From positions 8,643,648 through 8,707,647 of the forward strand of contig NC_080045.1 of assembly GCF_012489685.1 (NCBI RefSeq): a stretch of 64,000 nt of DNA. The letters run 5' to 3'. The position numbers and the translations under genes are program-made. This stretch comes from Lotus japonicus. Lineage: Eukaryota; Streptophyta; Magnoliopsida; Fabales; Fabaceae. Positions 9,705 through 58,499 of this stretch are shown one piece after another; the stretch's first letter is position 1; each line of letters opens with the position of its first letter. Under the pieces are notes generated by a model. That model did no database searches and had not been told where the DNA came from. It saw only the letters and a list, made by a program, of their open reading frames with translations.

Positions 9705-9827
9705 ACGGTAGATTTTGATTCCCGGATCACGTAGATTGTGATTTGATCAAGAGAAATCTGATTTTCTGTGCAATTTTACTTCGACTTTTGGATTTTCGGT
9801 GAAGCTCTAGTCATCCAACAGAACTTG

Positions 9828-10627
9828 ATGGAATCACGTCGTCGACGTCGAAGCGAAGAGCTAGAGCAGGGACGCGGCTCACCACCGCGCCGCGTAAGAA
9901 AGAGGTTGCGTCGTGAAGAGGAGCACCGCGCACGAGGTATTGACCTCAGGCTGCAAAACAATTGTCTGCAAGAAGAGTTGGAGTATTATCGCCTCAAGCA
10001 GTGGGGCGAAGAAGTGAGGGGAGCCAAGGCCGCTGAGAAGGTCGAGCCATTCTCAGCGGCAGTGAGGGAGGTGGCTGTGCCGGATGATATGAGGAGTCTT
10101 AAGTTAGCGACATACAACGGACAAACGGATCCAAAGGATCATCTGCTTTATTTCAACGTGAAGATGGCAACAAGCGCGGCTTCCGATGCGGTCAAGTGCA
10201 GGATGTTTCCATCCACGTTTAAGAGTGCGGTAACGGCTTGGTTTAAAGCTCTGCAAGAGGATCTATAGCAAAGTTCTGCGACTTATCATCGCAATTCCTT
10301 ACTCAGTTCTCTGCAAGCAAGATTGAGCCGGTGACAGTTGCAGATCTGTATGACATTCGACAGACGGAACGAGAAACTTTGAAGCAATATGTAAAGCGGT
10401 ACAGTGATGTGTCTAAGAAGATCGAGGAGTCAGAGCCTCAGACATGCGTGCGCGCCTTCGAAAACGGATTGCTGCCGGGAAAGCTAAACAGCAAGATGAG
10501 TCGAAAGCCGGCGCGCTCGATGACAGAAGCTCGCGCCCAGGAGAGTGCATACATCCTAGAAGAGGAGGACGACGCATTCAAGAAGAAACGTGTAAGGGCG
10601 GGAAAAAATAAGCAGCCGGAGGGATGA
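9828..10627 (+). pseudogene. gag of gypsy element, frameshifted
   Basis: From ATG 9828 an Arg-rich N terminus leads into the retrotransposon gag domain (TYNGQTDPKDHLLYFNVKM, then MFPSTFKSAVTAWFKAL). A stop at 10266-10268 ends the frame. The gag domain continues in another frame (10331-10627) with TVADLYDIRQTERETLKQYV and a C-terminal Lys-rich end, so one frameshift has broken it. The intact gag would form the virus-like particle of the retrotransposon. No complete product is expected from this copy. Confidence 0.85.
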
Positions 10628-10760
10628 GTCGCTAACGAGAAAATGGAAATGGAAAAAGGAGGCAAATGGAACACGAGAAAAGGACGTCGAGCGTTTCCCC
10701 CCTCGCCGGACAAACAGCCCTCGCTGGCGTGGAAGGCCAAAGAGATGCTCGAATGAAGAA

Positions 10761-11708
10761 TTGGCAAAGCTGCTCCAGGAGGCAGAGGTGACGAAAGTGG
10801 TCAAGAGCATAAGAGATGGAAATGGTTCGCAGCGAGAGGTGGAGGTCCGGACAAAATGGTGCGAATATCACCACTTGGAAGGCCATGACACCAGTACTTG
10901 TTTCGCGCTGAAAGGCAAGGTAGGAAGGCTGATTAGGGCGAGGCAAGCGCAAGCAACAGACCGTGAATCAGATAAGGACCATCGGGGCGTTCGTCGGCGA
11001 GCACCAGCGTCAGATAAGAGGCGAGCAAAGGTGGCGACAGAGAAAGGGGCTGAAGAAACTTTTAACAGCAATGCCAAGATGTCAGTCGAAACGATCAACA
11101 CAATCGCAGGAGGTTTTGACAAGGGTGGCAGTAGGTCCACGGCGAGACTGAGGCGCAAGGGGGCTGTAGCATCGGTGCAAGAGTATCCAGCCCCGTTTGG
11201 CTGTAAACACCCAAATATAGTGATTTCGGCGGCGGATTTTGAAGGGATTAGGACGCACAAGGACGATCCAGTGGTAGTAATGGTGAGAATCAATGGCTTT
11301 AACGTGCAAAGAGTGCTTTTGGACCAAGGTAGTTCCGCATACATTTACAGAGATGCGTTTGATAAGTTGGGGTTGGCAGACAAGGATTTAAGACCGTACA
11401 CGGGGGTCCTAGTAGGATTCTCTAGAAAGCAGGTCCAGGTGCGCGACTATGTAGATTTGTTTACGGTTTTTGAGGTCGACGAAAGCGCTGAGCTTCTACG
11501 CGTAAGGTATTTGGTCTTGCAGGTTGCGGCGGCGTACAACGTCATCATAGGGCGGAACACATTGAATCGTCTCTGCGCGGTGATTTCAACGGCCCACCTG
11601 GCAGTAAAATACCCCCTGATTTGCGGTAAAGTTGGTAAAATCGAAGTAGACCAGCAAAGGGCGAGAGAATGCTACAGCAACTGCCTTAATTTGTACGGTA
11701 AGAAATGA
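10761..11708 (+). pseudogene. gypsy zinc-binding and aspartic protease region
   Basis: This 315-codon open stretch has a Cys/His cluster (WCEYHHLEGHDTSTCFALK), a usual gag/pol boundary feature of plant gypsy elements. It then has a retropepsin core VLLDQGSSAYIYRDAF and a second half ending YNVIIGRNTLNRLCAVIST. DQGSSA in place of DTG is normal in this group. It ends at TGA 11706-11708, where a working element would continue into reverse transcriptase. It is open, but it lies in a defective element and is not joined to an intact gag. Confidence 0.8.
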
Positions 11709-11798
11709 GTTAATGACGGGCACAGGTGTCATGAGATTAAAGTCGAAAAGGGGGAACGGGAACAGCTAGTTGCACAGGGTCAAAACGCCGAGGGACAG

Positions 11799-12359
11799 TT
11801 GGTCGGCGGGAACATAAGAGGATCAAGGAAAAATCGAAGTCGGGACAAGGAAAGCCGAGAGGCGGGACATAATGGACAACATACTCCCATCGTTGACGAG
11901 AGGCGTTGGGAGAACTGTGATATGGACGCATCCAGCAAGGGTGTGCTGGCGATTGAGCTCAGGCTTACCGCCGAGCAGGAAGGGTGCTTGGATAGATTGG
12001 TAGAGGACAAGGTGGACCTCTTTAGCTGGGAGCAAGACGAGGCAGCGCTCCGAAGGTTGAATACACTTAACAGGCCAGTACAGTTGGCGGGAAAGAAGAA
12101 TCAAAGGGCGAGCAGGGAGGCTGGCCCAGATCAGAGTAACTGGAAGATGGAGGAAGAAGGGGGACAGTCGCGTGGCCGCCGGGATAAGAAAAGGAATAAT
12201 ATGAAGTACAAGAGCCCAGCAGAAGCCGCTGATATGGGGCCGAAAGAGACGAACCAGCACGTCGGGCGAGAGAATGAGACCAAAAGACCTCATTTTTTCC
12301 ATATGGTCGCCGGGAAGTACGAGGAGCTGGAAGATAGGATGTTCGGTGTGGTGCCCTGA
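11799..12359 (+). pseudogene. Residual pol linker upstream of lost reverse transcriptase
   Basis: The segment LRLTAEQEGCLDRLVEDKVDLFSWEQDEA resembles in part the linker found just before reverse transcriptase in plant gypsy polyproteins (AEQEGCLDRLVEDKVDLFSW). No YxDD motif or other RT motif follows. The remainder is low-complexity, charged sequence. This marks the left edge of the deletion that removed RT, RNase H and integrase. Confidence 0.5.
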
Positions 12360-26600: not shown

Positions 26601-29600
26601 AAGCAGTGAAAACAACGGTGGATTAAAATGGAATGTAGTTATTTAAAACAGTCAATTTCTAATAATTTTCTTCCCAAATTCAACACCTTCTGATATAAGA
26701 GTCTATTTAAAGAACATTAGTGGATAAAGGACTTCTTTTGGACCTTTTGAGACAAAAAATAAAGATGAAAAGCCACCTAGTTCCTTAGTAACATTGGAAA
26801 TTAGTTAATATCTGAAGTGATTGGTTGGACAGGTAATAATGAAAAGAAAAGGCACATACCAATTGAACTTTGTCAGCTTTTTGCCCAGAGACACGGCGAT
26901 TTGATTTTCCTCCTTTCTCAGAATTTGGAGCAACTGCAGCAAAATATGTCTCAAGTTCTGACATGTCAAACTCTGGAGCCCTAACACCAAAGATTTAAAA
27001 TAGATAAATAAATATTAACTAGAAATTCATATAAGCTAAGATTTCATAAGTCAGAAAAGTCTTAACACAACTCATACCTAGAAGCTTCATCAAGTTTCTG
27101 TGTCTCAGCCCATAAGCTACCTTGCATGGCCCTTGTTAATTTTAACCAATGATAAGGTTTCAGATTGTTCCTTTTAGTTTGAGTCTGAATTTTTGGATTA
27201 GGTCGCAACAAGCCACGTCCCTTTGCACCAAAGAGAGCACCAGAAGGTGGTCCAGGAATCGGAGGCACATTTCCATTTCCAGCACCAGTATGAAGCTGCA
27301 GTGGGGGTGCGCCAGATTTTGATAATCCGTTCGCAGGTGCGGCAGGAGGCGGGGGCACAGGCGGAGGATTTGTCGGGTTCCTAGACAGAGAGTTTTGGGA
27401 TGCAGAAGCAGGAGGAGGAGGTGGTGGTGGTGGTGACACTATTGATGTAGGAGTAGAACCAGGTGTTGTGCCCGAATGTCTAGGAGGTGGAGGTGGGGGA
27501 GGAGGGCCAGACATAGAAGGAGGAGGAGGAGGAGGTATTGAAGATGATGAAGTCTTCCCTGTAGAAGATGGAGCAGGAGGAGGAGGGGGAGGTATTGAAG
27601 ATGATGAAGTCTGCCTTGTAGAAGATGGAGAAGGAGGAGGAAGAGGTATTGAAGATGATGAAGTTTGTCCTGTAGGATATGGAGGAAGAGGAGGTGTTAA
27701 AGATGAATTCTGTCCACTAAAGGATGGAGGAGGTGGAGGTGGTGGGGTAGGAGGGCCTTTAAATGTATCTTTGCCAGTGGAAGGAGATGTTTCCGGAAGG
27801 GGAGAGGGTGGTGGATGGGATAAATGTGAGCTCTTCATGGCAGAAGATGGAGAAGAAAGTGCTGGGGTTGGAGGAGTAGGCATTGAAAGAGAGCTTTGGA
27901 TAGCATCAAAAGGAAGGGCTGGTGGAGGAAGAGGAGGAGGCATGACCAATGATTTCTGACCGTTATCATCCATTTTATTTTCGGAGTGCTTTGTAACAAC
28001 AGATTGTGCCAATTCTGAATTAGGCTCACATTTAGAAGGAGGAGCAGAAGCAAGGGGTTTAAAAGTCTTCTCCACTGAAGCAAGAGCATCCCCTGAAGAT
28101 TTTACTGGTAAAGATGGAAGAAGTGCTGGTGATGAAGCTGGGCAAACACTTGTGGAACTAGGCTCTATAGATTTTGACTCTTTTGAGTCTGAGGGAGGCA
28201 AAGTCGAAGCTGGAGATACTGTCATTGCATGAGTGACTTCTTTAATATCGGTCGGTGTATGATCCTGCAACACAGATGTAATTCCAAGAGCTGATGGTGC
28301 ACTATGATATCTTGAGATAGCAACAGGTGACCCTTGCAAGGAGTTAGAATAAGAAGCAGGAGCAGATCTATTAGCTTGATGCAGCCGTGGAGAAATTATT
28401 TTAGATTGGGTGGGGAGCTTAAGAGAAACCTGTAATTCTTTAGGTTCAAACTTCTTTTTAATTGCATCAGTGGACGATTCAAGTAAGGGACTATTTTGTT
28501 TCCTCTGAACTGTGGGTGTGGGCCTCTTGGTATCACTTTCTGACAACACCACTGATTCTGATTGTCCATTCATTTTTTTCATTGAATTTACATCCGTGGA
28601 TGGTTGAATTAAGGGTATAGACTGTTTCTCCTGAGCAATAGATGGAGGACACTTGGTATCATTTTCCACCGATGTCTTTGATTCTAATGATTCAATCTGC
28701 ATTTTGGAAGAATTTGAATCTGTTGAGAGTCCAGATGTGGGGATATGTTGTTTACCCTGACCCGTGGGTGCAAGAGTCTTGATATTATTTTCTGGTGAAG
28801 CCTTTGATTCTGAAGGTTCTTTATTCTTTTCCTTTGTAGCATCCCTAGAGGATTCAATTGAGAACTGAGGGAGCTTACTCTGAACTGCAGAAATTGGACT
28901 TCCAACATCAATTTCAGGAAGTGTCTTCAGTTCAGAGTTGAGTTCTTTATCACTTTGCAACAATGCCTCCGAGCCTAATGATCCAATCTCTGTTTCCTTT
29001 GATCCTAACTGTCCAATCTTATTTTTAATTGAACTTGCATTGTTGGATTGCTCAAGTAAGTGAGTAGATTGTTTTCCCTGAGACTCAGAAGCAGGAAACA
29101 CGGTGTCATTTTCCAACATTGCCTTTGATGCTAGTGGTACAATATCCTTTTCCTCATATTCCAGTGATCCAATCTTCTTTTTCACTGAATTTGGATCTAT
29201 AGATGGTTCAATTAAGGGGATAGATTGTTTCTCCTGAACCATTGAAGTAGGAAATTTGGTATCATTTTCAAATGATTGTTTTGATTCTAATGATTCATTC
29301 TCCTTTTTAGCAGAACCCGAATCTCTTGAGAGCCCAGATGTAGGAATAGGTTGATCCCCCTGACTTAGAGATGCAAGAGTCTTGTTGTCGTTTTCTGACA
29401 ATGCCTTTGATTCTAATGGTTGTATCTTCTTTTCCATAGGGGCATCCCTAGATAATTCCAATGAGGACTCAGAAAGATTCTTCTGAATCGCAGAAGGCAG
29501 ATTCATCGTATCATTCTGTGTCTTTGAATCAAATTTAAATCTTCCAGACAATGACTCCTTTAGCAAGCTACTTGTTGGAGAAGAAACCCCACTGTCCAAT

Positions 29601-32600
29601 TTTTCAAGGAGGATATTGGACGCCGTGATCTGTTGGAGCATACTTGCTACCTCTGTCTTCGAATCTAGCCAGTCAACGTTGCTGAAAATTTCCTTAACCT
29701 TAGCAAATGCTTCAACAGGTAGGCCTTCTTTCTCCTCAATACGAGGCAGGTCGATTGAAATAACAGAAGATGAAGCTTCCATTTCTGAGAAAAGAACCTT
29801 CAACCAGAAACACAGCATATACTCCATAAATATTAAGTTGGTTCTATGGCTTATCATAAATTATCAAAAACAGGAGAGGAAGAGAGAGATAAATACCTCT
29901 ACTCTAAAGTTTTTAGGGAACTGATCTTTAGCATTCCATAACATATCAATTTCATCACGGTTAAGCATCAAAATATTTGATCTTATGAATGCCGTATTGA
30001 ACATCACCCGAAACATCATTTGTTCACGTTCCAAATCACTGTCCAAACTAATACACTCCAGAACAACATCTCCTTGAACATGACAATGGATGTCAATCTT
30101 AACCAGTTCACATTCATCCTGTAACAAATATGAAACAAAAAATACATAGATTAAGGGAAATGGAGGAAACAACAAATCCTTATTGAAAAACCTTGTATCG
30201 GCAGGATCTTAACATTGAAAGAGGAAGAAAAAATTATGCATCTTTTTGGTTTTAATTGCATTCATCATTGCAACCTGATCACATTCTGGGTGGTATATAG
30301 AAGAAACAACTGTAGGAACTGCAGTTTACCTATTTTATGTTTATTTTTACAAATTGTATTTTTGCAAATCATAAGATCCTCACTAGATCAATTAATACAA
30401 ATATATCTTAAGTTTCAGAGAGAATTTTTACGTTTGATCCATATAACGGAATGGTATAACAAAACATGATTGCAAAATAACTGGTGTAACTCGCAGTCTA
30501 GTTTAGATTTGTAAACAACGGAGAAAAATATTTCTCCTCAGCCATTATCCTTTAAAGCGCTATTGGCTGTCTTCCATTCAGTTCATAAGCAAAGATGGTC
30601 CATTTCCTGCTCAAATCATTCCTCATCAGATCCCATCAAAATCACCACTGTCCAACCCCTCCCCATTTCACATGATATATAAAACATCAAAAAAATAATC
30701 CTGCTCTACTAATTAAGTATAGTTCTAGTTTTATTTAAATAATTTTGGGTAATCATTGACTTCAAACATCATGTTAACTTTACAACAAAAATTTCCTTAT
30801 TTTAAGAAACACAAAAGAAATGACATTTAGCTGGATTATTATTATATGTACTGATATATATTCTATTCATGTCTGGATGCATGTAACCACTATACACTAA
30901 TTGAATAAAAGATCTATGTTTGATAATTGATATAAAAATACAAATAATGGAAGGAACATTTCAATACAAGTAGCAAGAATAAAACAAAGGGAGACAAGTA
31001 TGCTGTCTAGAATCATAATCCAGCTTCAATTGAAAAAAATAGTGCAAATAAAAACGAGTAAGAGGAATCAAGTACCACCTGCTTGTAATGCCGAACAAGT
31101 TTGCTCCTTTTTGGAGTTGAAAAGAGAACTTTGGGAGTCCTATCAGCAGGAATAAAAGGGTCCTGTCCATATATTCTAAATATAGGACGGCAGCCCCCAT
31201 TTCCATCCATATTAGGAATGAGTCTTATAATCACGCAGTCCAATGTAAGTGCTCTATCAAGAGGAGGCCATTCTGAACCAACATTTCTTCTTGATATGTA
31301 CTGTAGATACCTAAATTGTGAAGGTAATGGATTCAACGGCGACATCAACTGCAAAAGTTCCCGAGGAGCTTGCTTGTATATCATGTCAAGTGTTTTCTGC
31401 TCTCCAGTAAATAGCTTTCTGTATATCAAGAATGCAGCTAGCATAAATGCTAAAACTGGCCACCCGCCTCGTTCACAATGCATCAAGACAATGTTTTGCT
31501 GCCCAAGTTGAAGCCAACTTTCTCCTGATCTCAAGAAATGGTGGATCATCTCCATGGTAAGTAACGGGCAACCTTCATATTGTCGAGGATAGTCCATCAC
31601 AGTCATATCATAGTCGCACAAAATGTTTGATATCTGGCTTTGGTTTTCTCCCTCCCGCATGTTGAACACCATTAATGAAGCATCAGGGAAGTGATCACGA
31701 AGTTGCCTAATTATACCCCCTATATACACTTTGTATTCATCTTCGTCCATAACATCCGTGGTAAAGCAGTAATCAAAGACTGCACGTGCAACAACAAAAT
31801 AAATCACAATCGAATATACATGAAGTAAAGATTTCTTAAGAATTAATGAATAGAGCCAAGTAGTATGACATGCCACATGTGTAAACAGAGCAGTAAGTGT
31901 CTAAAAATCAAAAGGCCCAAATAAAGATATTATAGTCAAGTTGTAAGAATAGCACAAGTTCAGTCACTAGCCCCCCAACAATAATCAATGGACACTGCAA
32001 CAACAAGAAGAGAAGTTTTATCCACTAAGTGAGGTCAGCTATATGAATCACACTACGCCAATGAGCTTGGTCCAAAACTAGATTTTGAGAGATATTATTG
32101 ATAATAAGGTCATCTTCCCATGTTCGTTTTGCTCTTTCTCTACCTCTTTTCACATGACTAAAGACCATGTTACCAACTCTTCTCACCAGTGCCTCCAAAG
32201 GTGTTCTTTGTACATGTCCATACCACCTTAACCTGTTTTCCGTCAGCTTCTCCTCGATAAACGTCACCCCAATTTATACTCTTATACACTCTTATCCTGT
32301 TAAGTGTAATCATTAATGGACAATGTTTCACAATAATTTATTCAGAATAGACTGCATAGAGAAAATGTATACCTTCCTATCAATGGAGAAGCTCAGTGTT
32401 TCACACAACACAAGCCCTATATAGGTTCTTTCCATTAGATTTATCTTCCTCCACCCCACAAAAGTATTTGCTTAAACAACTAGCATTTAGCCTATAATAA
32501 CTGCATACTCTACAATGAAAGGTGTAAAAAATTTATACAACTCACACTATTATTGGGAAAAACTCGTGTGAGTAGCTTCTAAGTTTTATAATTGATGAGG

Positions 32601-54561: not shown

Positions 54562-55229
54562 AGGATCCTAAACCGCAATTGACCGGTCCAAACCACCAGA
54601 ACCCAGTCCTTTTCACCCGCAAGACCCATTTTCTGGTCCACCCAACCCGATTTCACATTTTGGCTCGGTTTTGACAAGTCTAGTTCGGGTCGGTGAACCT
54701 TGGACAACCCTACTACAATATATTGATTATGAAGTGCGTACTTTTGGCTTAGAAGACCTAAACTACAAGCTTGGAGTAAAACAATTATGATTGTCATGAT
54801 TGACATAGTATAATATCTTAACAGGTAAAGTTTGTATTTCAAAATGATAACATCTTAAAATCAATTGTAAAAGACTTTGTAAACACGTACTTAAAAATAT
54901 TTTGGTACATTCATAGTTATTTTTTCTTACCTCTCAATTTCACATATTTTAGGTGTAAATGGGTCTTAAGGTAACATTATTCCTATTTAAAACCTTATTA
55001 AAATACTCCCTCCGTTTCAAAACTATTGTAGTTTTAGTTTTTTCACAAAGTTTAAGAGTTCATTAATTAATGTTATAATTTGACTGAAACACCCTTATTT
55101 AATATGAGTTATATGAAAGAGAGAGAATGAAAATAATTGGTCAACTAATTGGTGAGAATTGTGATTGGTGGAAATAAGAGGTGATACTTGGGAGATACAA
55201 TATTAAATGAGGGCATGAGTGGAAGATAA

Positions 55230-55446
55230 TGTTAGAAATCACATGGATTTCTTCAATGGGATCCCAAACATAGCAAAAGGGAGAATAGGAAAATTGATTC
55301 CAATATTCATTCATTATTAAAATTGATTATGGAAAAATACAATGAGTATGCTATTTATAGCATAATTGCCTAACTAACTATTAACTATCTACAATGTGGT
55401 CCTCATACTATCCCTACTCACTAAATGTGATCCTTGTATTTTAATA
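55230..55446 (-). repeat. 3' LTR of the non-autonomous element
   Basis: 217 bp, on the minus strand TATTAAAATACAAGG to TTTCTAACA. Contains TATTTATAGC/GCTATAAATA around 55350, a possible TATA box of the LTR promoter on the minus strand. Confidence 0.9.
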
Positions 55447-55572
55447 TCCTCCCGCAAGCTGGAAGTAGTATTTAGTAGTACATCCAGCTTGAAAATAGAA
55501 CTAAACAAAAAATGTAATGATGAAAATCAAATTCAGTATATAAGCAGTAGCAATCTTCATAGTCCGCAGCTC

Positions 55573-57513
55573 TCAAGTCTCAATCCATATCATGTACTCA
55601 TAAACTGGCAGCCTTCTCTTATCCTCTAAACAGAACTCATTCGGCATAACAAACATAATGCTTGATCCATCTTGAACCTTGGTTCCAGAGAGGAAAAATT
55701 GATTATGGGAAGTTACCATCACTGGTTCACTCTCATCATTAAGAAACTCTGCAGTATTAATACACTGCTGCAGTAGTTGTTGAACTATTTGCTTTATTGC
55801 TTCCAAGTACTGATCATGCAAATACTCAAGTAAGCACTTGATGAACAATGTGGCAGCAGCAACAAAAACAAGTGGAATTGAGTTGCCAAACCATAAGAAA
55901 ACATGAGCAATCACTGCATCAAAAGGCCCTGCCCCAGAAGATCTCTGCCTCCAGATAAGAGCATTTAGCACAAAGAATACTTCAGATGAAATAGCAAGAA
56001 ATATGGATGTTGTCTTGAGAGTGATTTCCTTCCATTTTATTCCCTTGAACATCTTATAAAGACATAATGAAAAATATCCAGCATAGAATTCAGATATCAT
56101 CAATTCAATCTCCTTCTCAGCAGTGTTAGCAATGGAGTAAAATGAATCAGTTCTGAAATAAGGAGACATAGGCACTTCTAATGAAAACTTGACATCTTCA
56201 ACACATAAAAAATTATCTCCTACATTCACAATCAACAATCTCAAGAGCCCAAGTTCTTCTCTGCAACTGTTACAACAGACAAGCACCAATACATCCTGAT
56301 ATATGCTCAAATTTGAAGCACAACCTATTTGTTTATCAAATGACTCAAGCTGAACTTGCTCCAAACTGCTTAATGAGCATCTATCAATCATTGGTGCATT
56401 TACACAAACACCTTGTGTGCAGCTCCTGAATCCACCAGGATCAAGTAAAATTGACTTAGAAGAATCTCCTATCATTGTGTCATTTTCACAAACAGCTTGT
56501 GGACAACACCAAAAACCATCAATCTCAAGCAACAAGTTCGAACCATTCATCCAATTAAAGGAGAAATCCCATAATCCCAGCCAAGACAATTGAAATTCTT
56601 TGATTGAAAGAAGGATTTGAGTTACCTTTGTGACACAACTTTCTCCAAAAGACTGATCGATGATGTGAGGAACATCAATTTGTTGAGTAACAGAATTCTT
56701 CATGAGACATGGAGAATAGGAAGATGAATCTGCTCCAAGATTAATCACAGCCTCACTAAAATTTCCAAAAGCATAAGCATTGGTGGCTGGTTTCCATGCC
56801 AGAAATTGAACATTCTGATCAGCACAGAACGAAAGACGCGAAATAAGGGAAGATGCTACACCAAGATCAATGGTCGACACTGAATCAGAAGCAATGGCTT
56901 CTTCCACGAGAGAAATTGATGAAGCGGAAGCTTCAAGAATTTTCTCAGGCACAGTTTCAACCATGGCTGAATCAGAGAAGGACGAAGAACCATAATTGGA
57001 AGTTGTAGTAGCATCGCGAGTGGACGATGAACCCAGCAATGAAGAAGAAACGAAGAAACCCTTGCTGATAGTGCCAAAAACGAACGGCTCAATCGCCGGT
57101 TTCCACGCCGGAATCTTGATTTCTCGATCGGCGAAGAAAGAAACAGGAAAATGATCAAGAATCTTCTCAGAAATCGTTTCATCTATGGCAGAATCAAAGC
57201 ACGCAGAGGAAAGAGGAACTGGAGCATGCAAGACAGAATCCTCATCTTCAACCTTCACGAATGATTCTTGCACCATGAGAGAATCAGAAGCCATGACCAT
57301 CGAATCAGAGAACGATGAAGGAGAAGATGAAACTACAGCAATGTCTCCAAAATCAGTGACCAAATCAGAGAAATTGAAGGAAGATAATCTCGCAGTGGTG
57401 CTGCGGCGGCAGCGCTTGAAGCCACGTCGAGCAGGTCGGAGGAAGCGCTCGTAACTCGGCGACGGCAGCGGCGGCGGAAGAGGCGGTGAGCTCCATTGGA
57501 GCTCTGATACCAT
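55573..57513 (-). CDS. 646-residue ORF carried by the LTR element, unknown function
   Basis: The ORF starts at the ATG formed by the last LTR base and the first PBS bases (MVSEL is the translated PBS) and runs without interruption to 55573. An in-frame ATG 28 codons upstream, in the LTR (57597), would give 674 residues. Residues 6-16 are proline-rich (SSPPLPPPLPSPS). A basic segment follows (RPARRGFKRCRRS). The first half is Ser-rich and acidic, with an internal repeat around AWKPAIEPFVFG and AWKPATNAYAFG. The second half has Cys-rich stretches and two hydrophobic segments, about residues 501-521 (IFLAISSEVFFVLNALIW) and 532-562 (IPLVFVAAATLFIKCLL), possibly membrane-spanning. There is no similarity to gag, pol or env that I can recognise. 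It could be a captured, spliced host cDNA or a lineage-specific element protein. Confidence 0.75.
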   Translation of the reverse strand: MVSELQWSSPPLPPPLPSPSYERFLRPARRGFKRCRRSTTARLSSFNFSDLVTDFGDIAVVSSSPSSFSDSMVMASDSLMVQESFVKVEDEDSVLHAPVPLSSACFDSAIDETISEKILDHFPVSFFADREIKIPAWKPAIEPFVFGTISKGFFVSSSLLGSSSTRDATTTSNYGSSSFSDSAMVETVPEKILEASASSISLVEEAIASDSVSTIDLGVASSLISRLSFCADQNVQFLAWKPATNAYAFGNFSEAVINLGADSSSYSPCLMKNSVTQQIDVPHIIDQSFGESCVTKVTQILLSIKEFQLSWLGLWDFSFNWMNGSNLLLEIDGFWCCPQAVCENDTMIGDSSKSILLDPGGFRSCTQGVCVNAPMIDRCSLSSLEQVQLESFDKQIGCASNLSIYQDVLVLVCCNSCREELGLLRLLIVNVGDNFLCVEDVKFSLEVPMSPYFRTDSFYSIANTAEKEIELMISEFYAGYFSLCLYKMFKGIKWKEITLKTTSIFLAISSEVFFVLNALIWRQRSSGAGPFDAVIAHVFLWFGNSIPLVFVAAATLFIKCLLEYLHDQYLEAIKQIVQQLLQQCINTAEFLNDESEPVMVTSHNQFFLSGTKVQDGSSIMFVMPNEFCLEDKRRLPVYEYMIWIET

Positions 57514-57842
57514 GTTAGAAATCACATGGATTTCTTCAATGGGATCCCAAACATAGCAAAAGGGAGAATAGGAAAATTGATTCCAATATTCATTCATTAT
57601 TAAAATTGATTATGGAAAAATACAATGAGTATGCTATTTATAGCATAATTGCCTAACTAACTATTAACTATCTACAATGTGGTCCTCATACTATCCCTAC
57701 TCACTAAATGTGATCCTTGTATTTTAATAAAAATACAATGAGTATGCTATTTATAGCATAATTGCCTAACTAACTATTAACTATCTACAATGTGGTCCTC
57801 ATACTATCCCTACTCACTAAATGTGATCCTTGTATTTTAATA
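57513..57842 (-). repeat. 5' LTR with a 113-bp tandem duplication
   Basis: 57513-57729 equals the 217-bp left LTR. 57730-57842 is a second copy of the outer (U3-side) 113 bp (AAAATACAATGAGTATGC to TTGTATTTTAATA). The duplication doubles the region with the putative TATA box (GCTATAAATA on minus). Confidence 0.92.
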
Positions 57843-57939
57843 GATAACGAGATAAAATACTTTGGATATGTAAAACAACAATGATTTTGGAACAAAACAA
57901 AAAAGTTAAAACTACAATAGTTTTGGAACGGAGGGAGTA

Positions 57940-58499
57940 CTCTTTATGGAGGTAATGCAGTGGCAGATTTTTTTATTTTCTATCTTTGGTATAGGTTTTC
58001 TTAAAATATCTTGAATAGTTCATGTATGTTGTGCACCTTGCTTAAAGAAATTTAGAACAACCGAATTATTTAAATAGGTTTGACTTTTTATTAGATCATA
58101 AGAGCCAGAGTTAGAACTTCACATGACTTTTTGATTCATTATCAACTTTCTTTGGGCGTTAGTTGGCTCTTGGTTGAAATTTACAGGTGCACTTTGTAAC
58201 AAAGCTGGTAGAACGGAAAGTAAGCACTTCTAAACTATCGAGTAGGATGTCAGTAATACACTGTGAAAATCAATAGAGGCTCACTCCTAAATAGGAGTGT
58301 CATGTCCACCTTATTTTTTAGGCGCTAGCTTATGCTCTCTTTTTTATTTTCCCCATACCCAAAATAAAACCTTACCTTGAACTTTCGTCGTTTTAATTTA
58401 TTCACACATAACTTTTTCTCTTAACTCATTTTTCACTTATTTTCTGGTTTTAAACACAATACTGAGTGTTATACCTTTTTTTATAGACAAATGTTAGTT
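57940..58499. other. Intergenic, no gene seen
   Basis: AT-rich, no supported ORF or repeat end. Confidence 0.5.

Follow-up and report, generated by a model that had tools for sequence, protein, structure and literature searches.

Positions 55230-57842 of the 64-kb Lotus japonicus window (the whole stretch of DNA analysed, 64,000 nucleotides) are occupied by a young LTR element on the minus strand, whose single long reading frame joins an orphan N-terminal part to a captured fragment of a host gene. The element probably represents a non-autonomous, gene-capturing LTR family that is mobilised in trans and whose frame is kept open for translation or RNA stability. A copia-type partner would probably supply the mobilisation. 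Translation is predicted to begin at the first AUG, in the LTR behind a TATA box, and to read through the primer binding site (PBS) as in Ty1. The 5' part shared by the family would encode an orphan protein in which a WKP-containing repeat occurs twice, and the 3' part would be a module open to exchange, which in this copy carries a captured TM9SF/EMP70 fragment. New combinations may arise when element RNAs recombine in the course of reverse transcription. Maintenance would chiefly concern openness to near the 3' LTR and the exact protein less so, and the copies that spread may be those whose RNA is translated over almost its full length, which would for example let it escape nonsense-mediated decay.

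Element structure and insertion site

The features of the element and its surroundings are as follows.

55004..55229, no strand: left MITE part (terminal inverted repeat 55004-55043)
55225..55229, no strand: target site duplication GATAA, left copy; empty site recovered elsewhere
55230..55446, minus: 3' LTR, TA...CA ends, from LTR alignment
55447..55455, minus: polypurine-tract-like GCGGGAGGA, adjoining the 3' LTR, by eye
55573..57597, minus: full reading frame from the LTR ATG (MNEYWNQ...), 674 codons plus stop
55846..56087, minus: captured TM9SF/EMP70 host-gene fragment, 242 nt at 83% identity with host gene L045
56746..56832, minus: WKP-containing repeat 2, residues 228-256 from the junction Met
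57055..57141, minus: WKP-containing repeat 1, residues 125-153 from the junction Met
57501..57512, minus: PBS TGGTATCAGAGC, abutting the LTR with no gap
57513..57842, minus: 5' LTR, from LTR alignment
57634..57642, minus: TATA box TATAAATAG, within the LTR and 45 nt upstream of the first ATG
57843..57847, no strand: target site duplication GATAA, right copy; empty site recovered elsewhere
57848..57941, no strand: right MITE part (terminal inverted repeat 57900-57939)

Both LTRs are 100% identical across 218 aligned nt. The identity described in the first-pass annotation stands for 57513-57729 of the 5' LTR, which equals the 3' LTR, but in the 5' LTR the outer 113 nt are in addition duplicated in tandem (57730-57842). 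The PBS, which we take to be of the initiator-tRNA-Met type, and the purine tract were found where they had been placed; the 64 kb contain one exact PBS site and one with a single mismatch, whereas 0.19 sites with no more than one mismatch would be expected. Two LTRs, a PBS, a polypurine tract (by eye) and a short target duplication characterise the element as an LTR retrotransposon.

The GATAA duplication directly flanks the element on both sides, as originally proposed, and the insertion has split a MITE that is common in the genome in its empty form. A 320-nt query made of the two flanks around one GATAA is matched at 93-97% identity over 316-320 nt by at least 40 other places; among 1261 first-look candidates, 40 were scored. 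One further match extends over 298 nt. These empty-site matches prove the element borders independently.

A chimeric frame with captured host fragments

Reading of the sequence confirmed an intact 646-codon frame whose ATG straddles the LTR/PBS junction. The 32 codons above the junction are also open in this frame, and the first ATG downstream of the TATA box lies in the LTR, in frame and 84 nt upstream of the junction, which makes the junction ATG (57511-57513) codon 29 of the 674-codon frame. Because an in-frame LTR ATG comes earlier in 23 of 23 family junctions read, the junction ATG was rejected as a special start, and the earlier view that the ORF begins at the junction has to be given up. 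Nor is this ATG noteworthy in itself, as an LTR ending in CA joined to a PBS starting with TGG always creates one. Yeast Ty1 is a known case of a coding frame that runs across the PBS; the available text of PMC5454406 gives it a 5' UTR at 1-53 and a PBS at 95-104 inside the GAG frame. In Ty1 and, on its predicted RNA, in the Lotus element, the AUG lies in the portion of the RNA that comes from the LTR, and the frame crosses the PBS. Ty1 encodes Gag and Pol, whereas the frame of the Lotus element is not recognisably gag.

Profile searches with the complete ORF, with parts of it and with other frames returned no gag, protease, integrase or RT match, and no gag/pol match in four other family ORFs. 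No phage-type family matched at E 0.1, and no relative of the ORF was confirmed in viral contigs. A solved-structure search with the ORF gave no relative at E up to 1, a second gave one match (E 1.1) that was taken as chance, and single-sequence structure prediction reached a mean pLDDT of 31.4. Together with the identical LTRs, the gag/pol results uphold the description as a young non-gag/pol LTR element. A divergent gag/pol ORF, or a decayed autonomous copia element, would agree with the PBS, the 5-bp duplications and the LTR layout, but it is highly improbable in view of the missing gag, protease, integrase and RT matches and of the host exon pieces held by two modules.

Over residues 472-555 the ORF has a Pfam EMP70 match (E = 1.5e-16), spanning profile positions 305-388 of 517 only; the ORF is not the full-length nine-TM protein that defines EMP70/TM9SF membership. 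The fragment has the same frame and strand as in host gene L045, and it contains the hydrophobic segments of the ORF, for which the first-pass annotation knew no matching family. A sister 3' module holds a fragment of a HECT/HUWE1-like E3 gene (L092; 72.6% over 401 nt). In Pfam this piece gives a weak match (E 0.031) and a longer piece none at 0.1, and its HECT identity was settled by PDB chains. Both captured pieces match inside one open stretch of their respective host genes, and the HECT piece starts a few nt from an exon start, without the preceding intron.

With pieces of an EMP70 gene and a HECT E3 gene between its LTRs, the family is of the gene-capturing (Pack-type or Bs1-like) kind. 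Bs1 of maize, as described in the available text of PMC13317346, likewise holds host gene pieces in one chimeric frame, the hybrid ORF of an LTR element. Its sources are given there as H+-ATPase, xylan endohydrolase and glucanase instead of EMP70 and HECT E3, and what sets the Lotus family apart from that account is its 31 loci, three exchangeable 3' modules and orphan repeat N-terminus.

Family copies, modules and related elements

The genome search counted 31 family loci, which rules out a single-copy artefact. An uninterrupted junction frame of 518-696 aa occurs in 13 of the 24 copies read, so that the many ORF-sharing copies to which the first-pass annotation had looked for support do exist. 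It had also named a divergent gag/pol, a single copy or gag-bearing members as contrary outcomes, and none of these was seen. Counted from the LTR ATG, the single frame of the open copies measures 546-724 aa, one of these copies being open from the junction ATG only. One further member (L087) lies outside the 31-locus list. A 5-bp duplication at TATTA...CTAACA borders was found in 17 of the 24 copies, the distance from LTR start to LTR start is 2.2-2.8 kb in most pairs, and K between paired LTRs is 0-0.0152 in 20 of 21 cases and 0.043 in one.

The N-terminal part common to the family is the orphan that carries the WKP-containing repeat. The 3' modules are of three exchangeable types, with a TM9SF/EMP70 fragment, a HECT-ligase fragment or no known source. 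Two mosaic copies resemble one subfamily at 98.0-98.6% over 1.3 kb and then another at 93-95.5%. Such mosaics show module swapping, which may have come about through template switching. Three of the 13 open copies (C1_60501873, C1_87513364 and C3_21943688) have a shortened 3' end relative to their nearest relatives. C1_60501873 has a 546-aa frame, yet 532 nt separate its stop from the 3' LTR, a layout that fits decay escape poorly.

The WKP-containing repeat also occurs, at 46% over 69 aa, in a second Lotus LTR family, L071, which has a 957-aa ORF. The LTRs of the two families have no significant similarity (best 14 nt, E 0.04), and an integrase C-terminal domain, SH3_Tf2-1, is recognised in L071 (E = 2.1e-15). 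It is tentatively possible that the repeat is a portable module, passed between two families with dissimilar LTRs, placed behind an LTR start codon and joined in a frame-preserving manner to exchangeable host pieces. In that case the elements would give rise to a family of modular proteins of their own, or else, at the RNA level, selection would target how long the open frame is and not the protein.

No autonomous partner was present among 20 further LTR/PBS sites read, 19 of which belong to another LTR family and one (L087) to this family. A 7.4-kb LTR pair on C6 was rejected as partner because a LINE-like insertion lies between its PBS and ORF (by eye). In a 6.35-kb pair on C1, the ORF contains tandem repeats and other DNA. 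The PBS and the 5-bp duplication give only a hint of a Ty1/copia lineage, and the gag and pol genes of an autonomous Ty1/copia element found no match in the ORFs profiled. LARDs have a long non-coding internal region, and that of the present element is short and mostly coding. TRIMs, which are miniature and are defined in the available text of PMC4717578 as without coding capacity, differ from this 2.6-kb element with its 674-aa frame and from the open copies of its family. Gene-fragment TRIMs such as GmaRetroS15 of soybean likewise have short LTRs, 5-bp duplications and captured exon pieces in that account, which gives gene-carrying TRIMs a total of 1,172-1,449 bp, well below the distance between LTR starts in the Lotus family. 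The additional ORFs of plant LTR elements, as far as they are covered in the available text of PMC7264820, resemble the Lotus frame in being common to most copies and without a host source, but they mostly lie between pol and the 3' LTR of gag/pol elements, unlike the Lotus frame.

Openness, lesions and amino-acid constraint

As judged from the sequences, openness is preserved across diverged subfamilies and lesions are nearly all private. Subfamilies are still open although their N-terminal parts have diverged by a dS of roughly 0.1 to 0.38, and simulated neutral drift over 335 codons, with 130-200 substitutions, produces a mean of 4-8 stop mutations. When five open copies are compared in pairs, 57 of 61 gaps have a length divisible by 3, gap and stop counts being biased towards openness because the 13 open copies were picked for being open. 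When 30 stops or frame breaks were mapped to common columns, in a list that includes jumps from insertions or a neighbouring element (C1_54489575, C2_31438674 and C3_21943688), three pairs coincided. One is the same 1-nt N-terminal insertion in C3_35698570 and C5_19905400, either because a broken copy moved or because the change arose twice; the second consists of two different indel sets, and the third lies in non-homologous modules, which leaves 28 of the 30 calls not found shared. Two of the seven loci outside the 24 read (C4:50441381 and C3:64629923) are 99.7% identical over 315 nt, with two TGA listed in each, and may share their lesions.

Plain gene capture without selection, in which the elements are too young for inherited open host-exon frames to have decayed, appears unlikely and was already disfavoured. 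It would accord with the small LTR divergence in all but one of the pairs, with the lesion common to two loci, and with gene capture by LTR elements being well known (PMC4717578 and PMC13317346, in their available text). The captured EMP70 fragment also evolves almost neutrally, with an omega of 0.79 after capture versus 0.065-0.12 between L045 and near paralogs (unsaturated comparisons). However, although the insertions are young, the lineages are old, and neither the open frames of the diverged subfamilies nor the largely unshared lesions fit this account.

Selection on the ORF, as suggested in the first-pass annotation, is supported in part, with regard to openness, whereas amino-acid constraint, on the available alignments, is weak in recent comparisons and stronger for the repeat in deep ones. 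That the frame encodes a working element protein, accessory or a gag substitute, which aids its own RNA through a functional N-terminal repeat while the 3' modules are passengers, is rather doubtful. In its favour, the N-terminal part is common to all 13 open copies, and its repeat recurs in the second LTR family despite the dissimilar LTRs. The repeat units have mostly third-position excess, with omega 0.13-0.50 where dS is unsaturated, and deep pairs have an omega of 0.44-0.54, which at kappa 2 is below the mean of 0.85 from stop-purged neutral runs and at kappa 4-6 less clearly so, the transition/transversion ratio behind the neutral runs being rough (112 vs 91 changes at pooled four-fold sites). 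In contrast, differences are nearly even over codon positions (p > 0.07 in 10 of 10 pairs), and intermediate pairs (omega 0.60-0.72) are within the neutral range or on its border. Omega in young pairs scatters from 0.11 to 3.2 on few changes and, for residues 1-300, is above 1 in three young EMP70-group pairs and below 1 in four others, again on few changes. Long insertions and deletions also occur inside the N-terminal part, no gag-like family matches it, and the deep constraint could stem from a lost host gene. A tree-based count gave 0.55 for internal and 0.87 for terminal branches and was not used as support; mosaics moreover break its single-tree assumption. The amino-acid constraint of the deep pairs and of the WKP repeat goes beyond what openness alone explains.

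Gene capture by LTR elements is often seen as incidental, and one family here keeps a long chimeric frame open across subfamilies that have diverged and exchanged modules. Young open and broken copies stand side by side in one genome, which allows a direct test of whether translation or the protein drives spread. The same setting makes it possible to ask whether such frames lead to new genes.

Borders of the element and its surroundings

Three features of the window are listed here, the last two recognised by eye.

55230-57842, minus strand: LTR element bounded by GATAA duplications
27062-29860 and 31013-31900, minus strand: formin-like plant gene with proline-rich and phosphatase-like frames
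9762-12359, plus strand: gag- and protease-like frames of a putative Ty3-type element

The two LTRs of the element show no differences across 218 aligned nt, the outer 113 nt are present in an extra tandem copy within the 5' LTR, and the PBS TGGTATCAGAGC directly abuts the LTR. The LTR termini are TA...CA in place of TG...CA. The element is inserted inside a MITE with inverted ends of 40 nt. Joined with a single GATAA, its flanks form 320 nt. Of 1261 first-look candidates for this joined sequence, 40 were scored, giving at least 40 places in the genome with 93-97% identity across 316-320 nt and one further match across 298 nt. These MITE matches represent the natural empty site, and the borders are therefore exact to the base. 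The MITE itself (window 55004-55229 and 57848-57941; about 320 nt, CTCCCTCCGTTTCAAAAC-type ends) is very abundant, as the number of candidates indicates. The genome (G000) contains 75 exact sites of GATTTCTAACATGGTATCAGAGC; a second abundant LTR family has the last LTR bases and the PBS in common with the present family, and its post-PBS sequence resembles TGGTCTGATCCAAGCCATGACTTCC.

Copies of the family and the start of the frame

A search with the window ORF returns at least 100 matches (68 of 107 candidates scored), and those listed comprise 31 family loci, 7 loci of another LTR family, 5 host EMP70 genes and 4 short relics. One additional member, L087, lies outside this list. Among the 24 family loci read as sequence (25 merged stretches, one being the other LTR family), 13 have a frame that, counted from the LTR/PBS junction, runs unbroken for 518-696 aa. 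Three of these open copies (C1_60501873, C1_87513364 and C3_21943688, named by contig and start position) are shortened near the 3' end relative to their nearest relatives, and a further copy, C2_56979215, is interrupted solely by a stop at codon 3. LTR divergence, calculated for 21 loci with some pairs incomplete because the DNA read ends within them, amounts to K 0-0.0152 in 20 and 0.043 in one. A 5-bp duplication at TATTA...CTAACA borders is present in 17 of 24 loci; several candidate borders were tried per locus, and a few could be chance. Two copies carry large insertions: that at C6:24637723-24648360 is split between PBS and ORF by about 5 kb, LINE-like by reading, with reverse-transcriptase-like open frames on the opposite strand, and L070 (G000:C1:54493607-54497900) has a several-kb insertion with a tandem-repeat array in its ORF.

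The window frame spans 678 codons from stop to stop. An LTR ending in CA followed by a PBS beginning with TGG always yields an ATG at the junction, and this ATG had been proposed as the start. At all 23 junctions located by script among the 24 loci (none in C5_19905400), the first ATG past the TATA box is in frame and lies 84 nt upstream of the junction, at 40-48 nt downstream of where the TATA box starts. The frame thus likely begins within the LTR, with the junction ATG a later in-frame codon (codon 29 from the LTR ATG in the window element). In C1_59247769, a stop within the LTR segment leaves the junction ATG as the start. The arrangement resembles Ty1, in which the GAG start codon resides within the LTR-derived leader, the PBS (nt 95-104) falls inside the GAG frame, and Gag provided in trans is reported to stabilise a Ty1 RNA whose translation is blocked by a premature stop (PMC5454406, the last point citing another paper).

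Host-derived pieces, module exchange and the N-terminal repeat

Residues 472-555 of the window ORF match EMP70, as does L016. The best host gene for this piece is the TM9SF/EMP70 gene L045 on C6 (83% identity, 242 nt), relative to which dS is 0.31, dN 0.24 and omega 0.79. Unsaturated comparisons of L045 with its near paralogs give omega 0.065-0.12, and those with the distant L039-L041, some of them saturated, 0.22-0.35. The piece was thus taken up in frame and has since evolved nearly without constraint. The relic L093 (G000:C1:124017500-124019000), which contains the EMP70 piece and the preceding stretch (82% identity with the window ORF, 422 nt), would be either an old family copy or an intermediate stage of this capture. 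The second 3' module (e.g., C2_30970707, C3_55030775 and C3_21943688) includes a piece of L092, which PDB matches (best E 1.4e-35) identify as a HUWE1/TOM1-like HECT ligase gene, its match to Pfam HECT being only weak. This piece retains 54% protein and 72.6% DNA identity across 401 nt (omega 0.66), and its match begins just a few nt away from where an exon starts, which hints at, but does not prove, capture through spliced RNA. For the third module (C1_52601515 and relatives), the only non-family match among 21 of 21 candidates scored is a relic with stops, C5:10838555.

Recombination between packaged RNAs is a known route to mosaic elements, and the mosaic copies of this family may have arisen in this way. 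C3_21943688 is 98.6% identical to C1_52601515 along 1351 nt including the LTR, after which 710 nt are 95.5% identical to C2_30970707; C2_56979215 makes the same switch (98.0% along 1303 nt, then 92.9% along 1373 nt), so a single event may account for both. Between C1_51863334 and the window copy, identity reaches 95-100% in the 3' half but is mostly 78-88% in the middle, with one 100-column bin at 38% that is probably misaligned.

Profile searches return no Pfam match for the N-terminal part, in which two units of the form SFFADREIKIPAWKPAIEPFVFGT occur. A search with residues 121-260 gives 67 candidates, all of them scored; they are family loci, 7 loci of the other LTR family or 3 short single matches, one of which (L094) is an old-looking relic on examination; no host gene was recognised among them. 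The other LTR family with this WKP-containing repeat comprises L071 1-3155 (G000:C1:110064800-110069800) and six further loci. A motif search places two repeat units in the 957-aa frame of L071, which also carries an integrase C-terminal SH3 domain (SH3_Tf2-1); the best match between its LTRs and those of the present family is 14 nt (E 0.04). Several copies score near-identically, so this family probably amplified recently. Repeat units, whether set against one another or against those of the other family, display high or saturated dS, dN of 0.2-0.5 and mostly a third-position excess. The repeat has therefore been constrained at the protein level, in the past or to this day, perhaps in a host gene since lost.

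Host-exon capture by LTR elements is already known, being described for Bs1 (PMC13317346), for TRIMs (PMC4717578) and, on the scale of whole genomes, for rice and sorghum (PMC3726574), and additional ORFs in gag/pol elements have been reviewed (PMC7264820). Searches of the openly accessible literature turned up no description of the present family.

Evidence for and against selection on the frame, and a proposed mode of spread

Simulated neutral drift over 335 codons yields a mean of 4-8 stops by 130-200 substitutions; against this expectation, 13 copies are open despite lineages up to dS 0.38 apart, which counts for selected openness. Stops and frame breaks of all 24 loci, mapped to common columns, amount to 30 calls in 13 loci, which do not include the LINE-interrupted copy; three of the calls are jumps due to insertions or to an adjacent element. 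In three cases, lesions of two different loci fall within three columns: C3_35698570 and C5_19905400 share an identical 1-nt insertion, those of C4_31806853 and C6_30010246 are different indels, and the remaining pair sits in non-homologous modules. With one pair truly shared, most but not all lesions are private. The stop at first suspected in both C6_30010246 and C2:15892 is not shared. The two copies whose frame is broken by the shared insertion (G000:C3:35698570-35703508 and G000:C5:19905400-19908924) each have a second PBS-like junction preceded by no usual LTR end, and possibly represent a broken subfamily that still moved. Of 61 gaps between five open copies, 57 have a length divisible by 3, which is partly expected because the copies were chosen for openness.

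The encoded protein may itself be selected; the first-pass annotation suggested an ORF either under selection or recently captured. In each of 10 pairs, differences are spread almost evenly over the codon positions (p ranging from 0.077 to 0.91). Six intermediate pairs have omega 0.60-0.72, values that lie inside the neutral range or on its margin. For the four deepest pairs omega is 0.44-0.54; at kappa 2 this falls under the lower 2.5% bound of the longer neutral runs, whereas at kappa 4-6 some of it lies inside. Young pairs, on few changes, give omega >1 in three and <1 in four. Together these values argue against strong protein constraint.

Under the proposed mechanism, a partner element would supply all proteins, and the family RNA would carry the PBS, PPT and LTR signals. 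The best-spreading copies would be those with a frame open to near the 3' LTR, which, judging from general plant biology, may escape the decay that affects RNAs whose 3' UTR is long. Distances from stop to 3' LTR, covering 12 of the 13 open copies (C3_21943688 left out), are 126-272 nt in eight of nine copies measured and 532 nt in one, and about 155-220 nt in three more from LTR and frame coordinates. Partner proteins acting in trans, combined with the spread of open-frame copies, would be the simplest account of the family.
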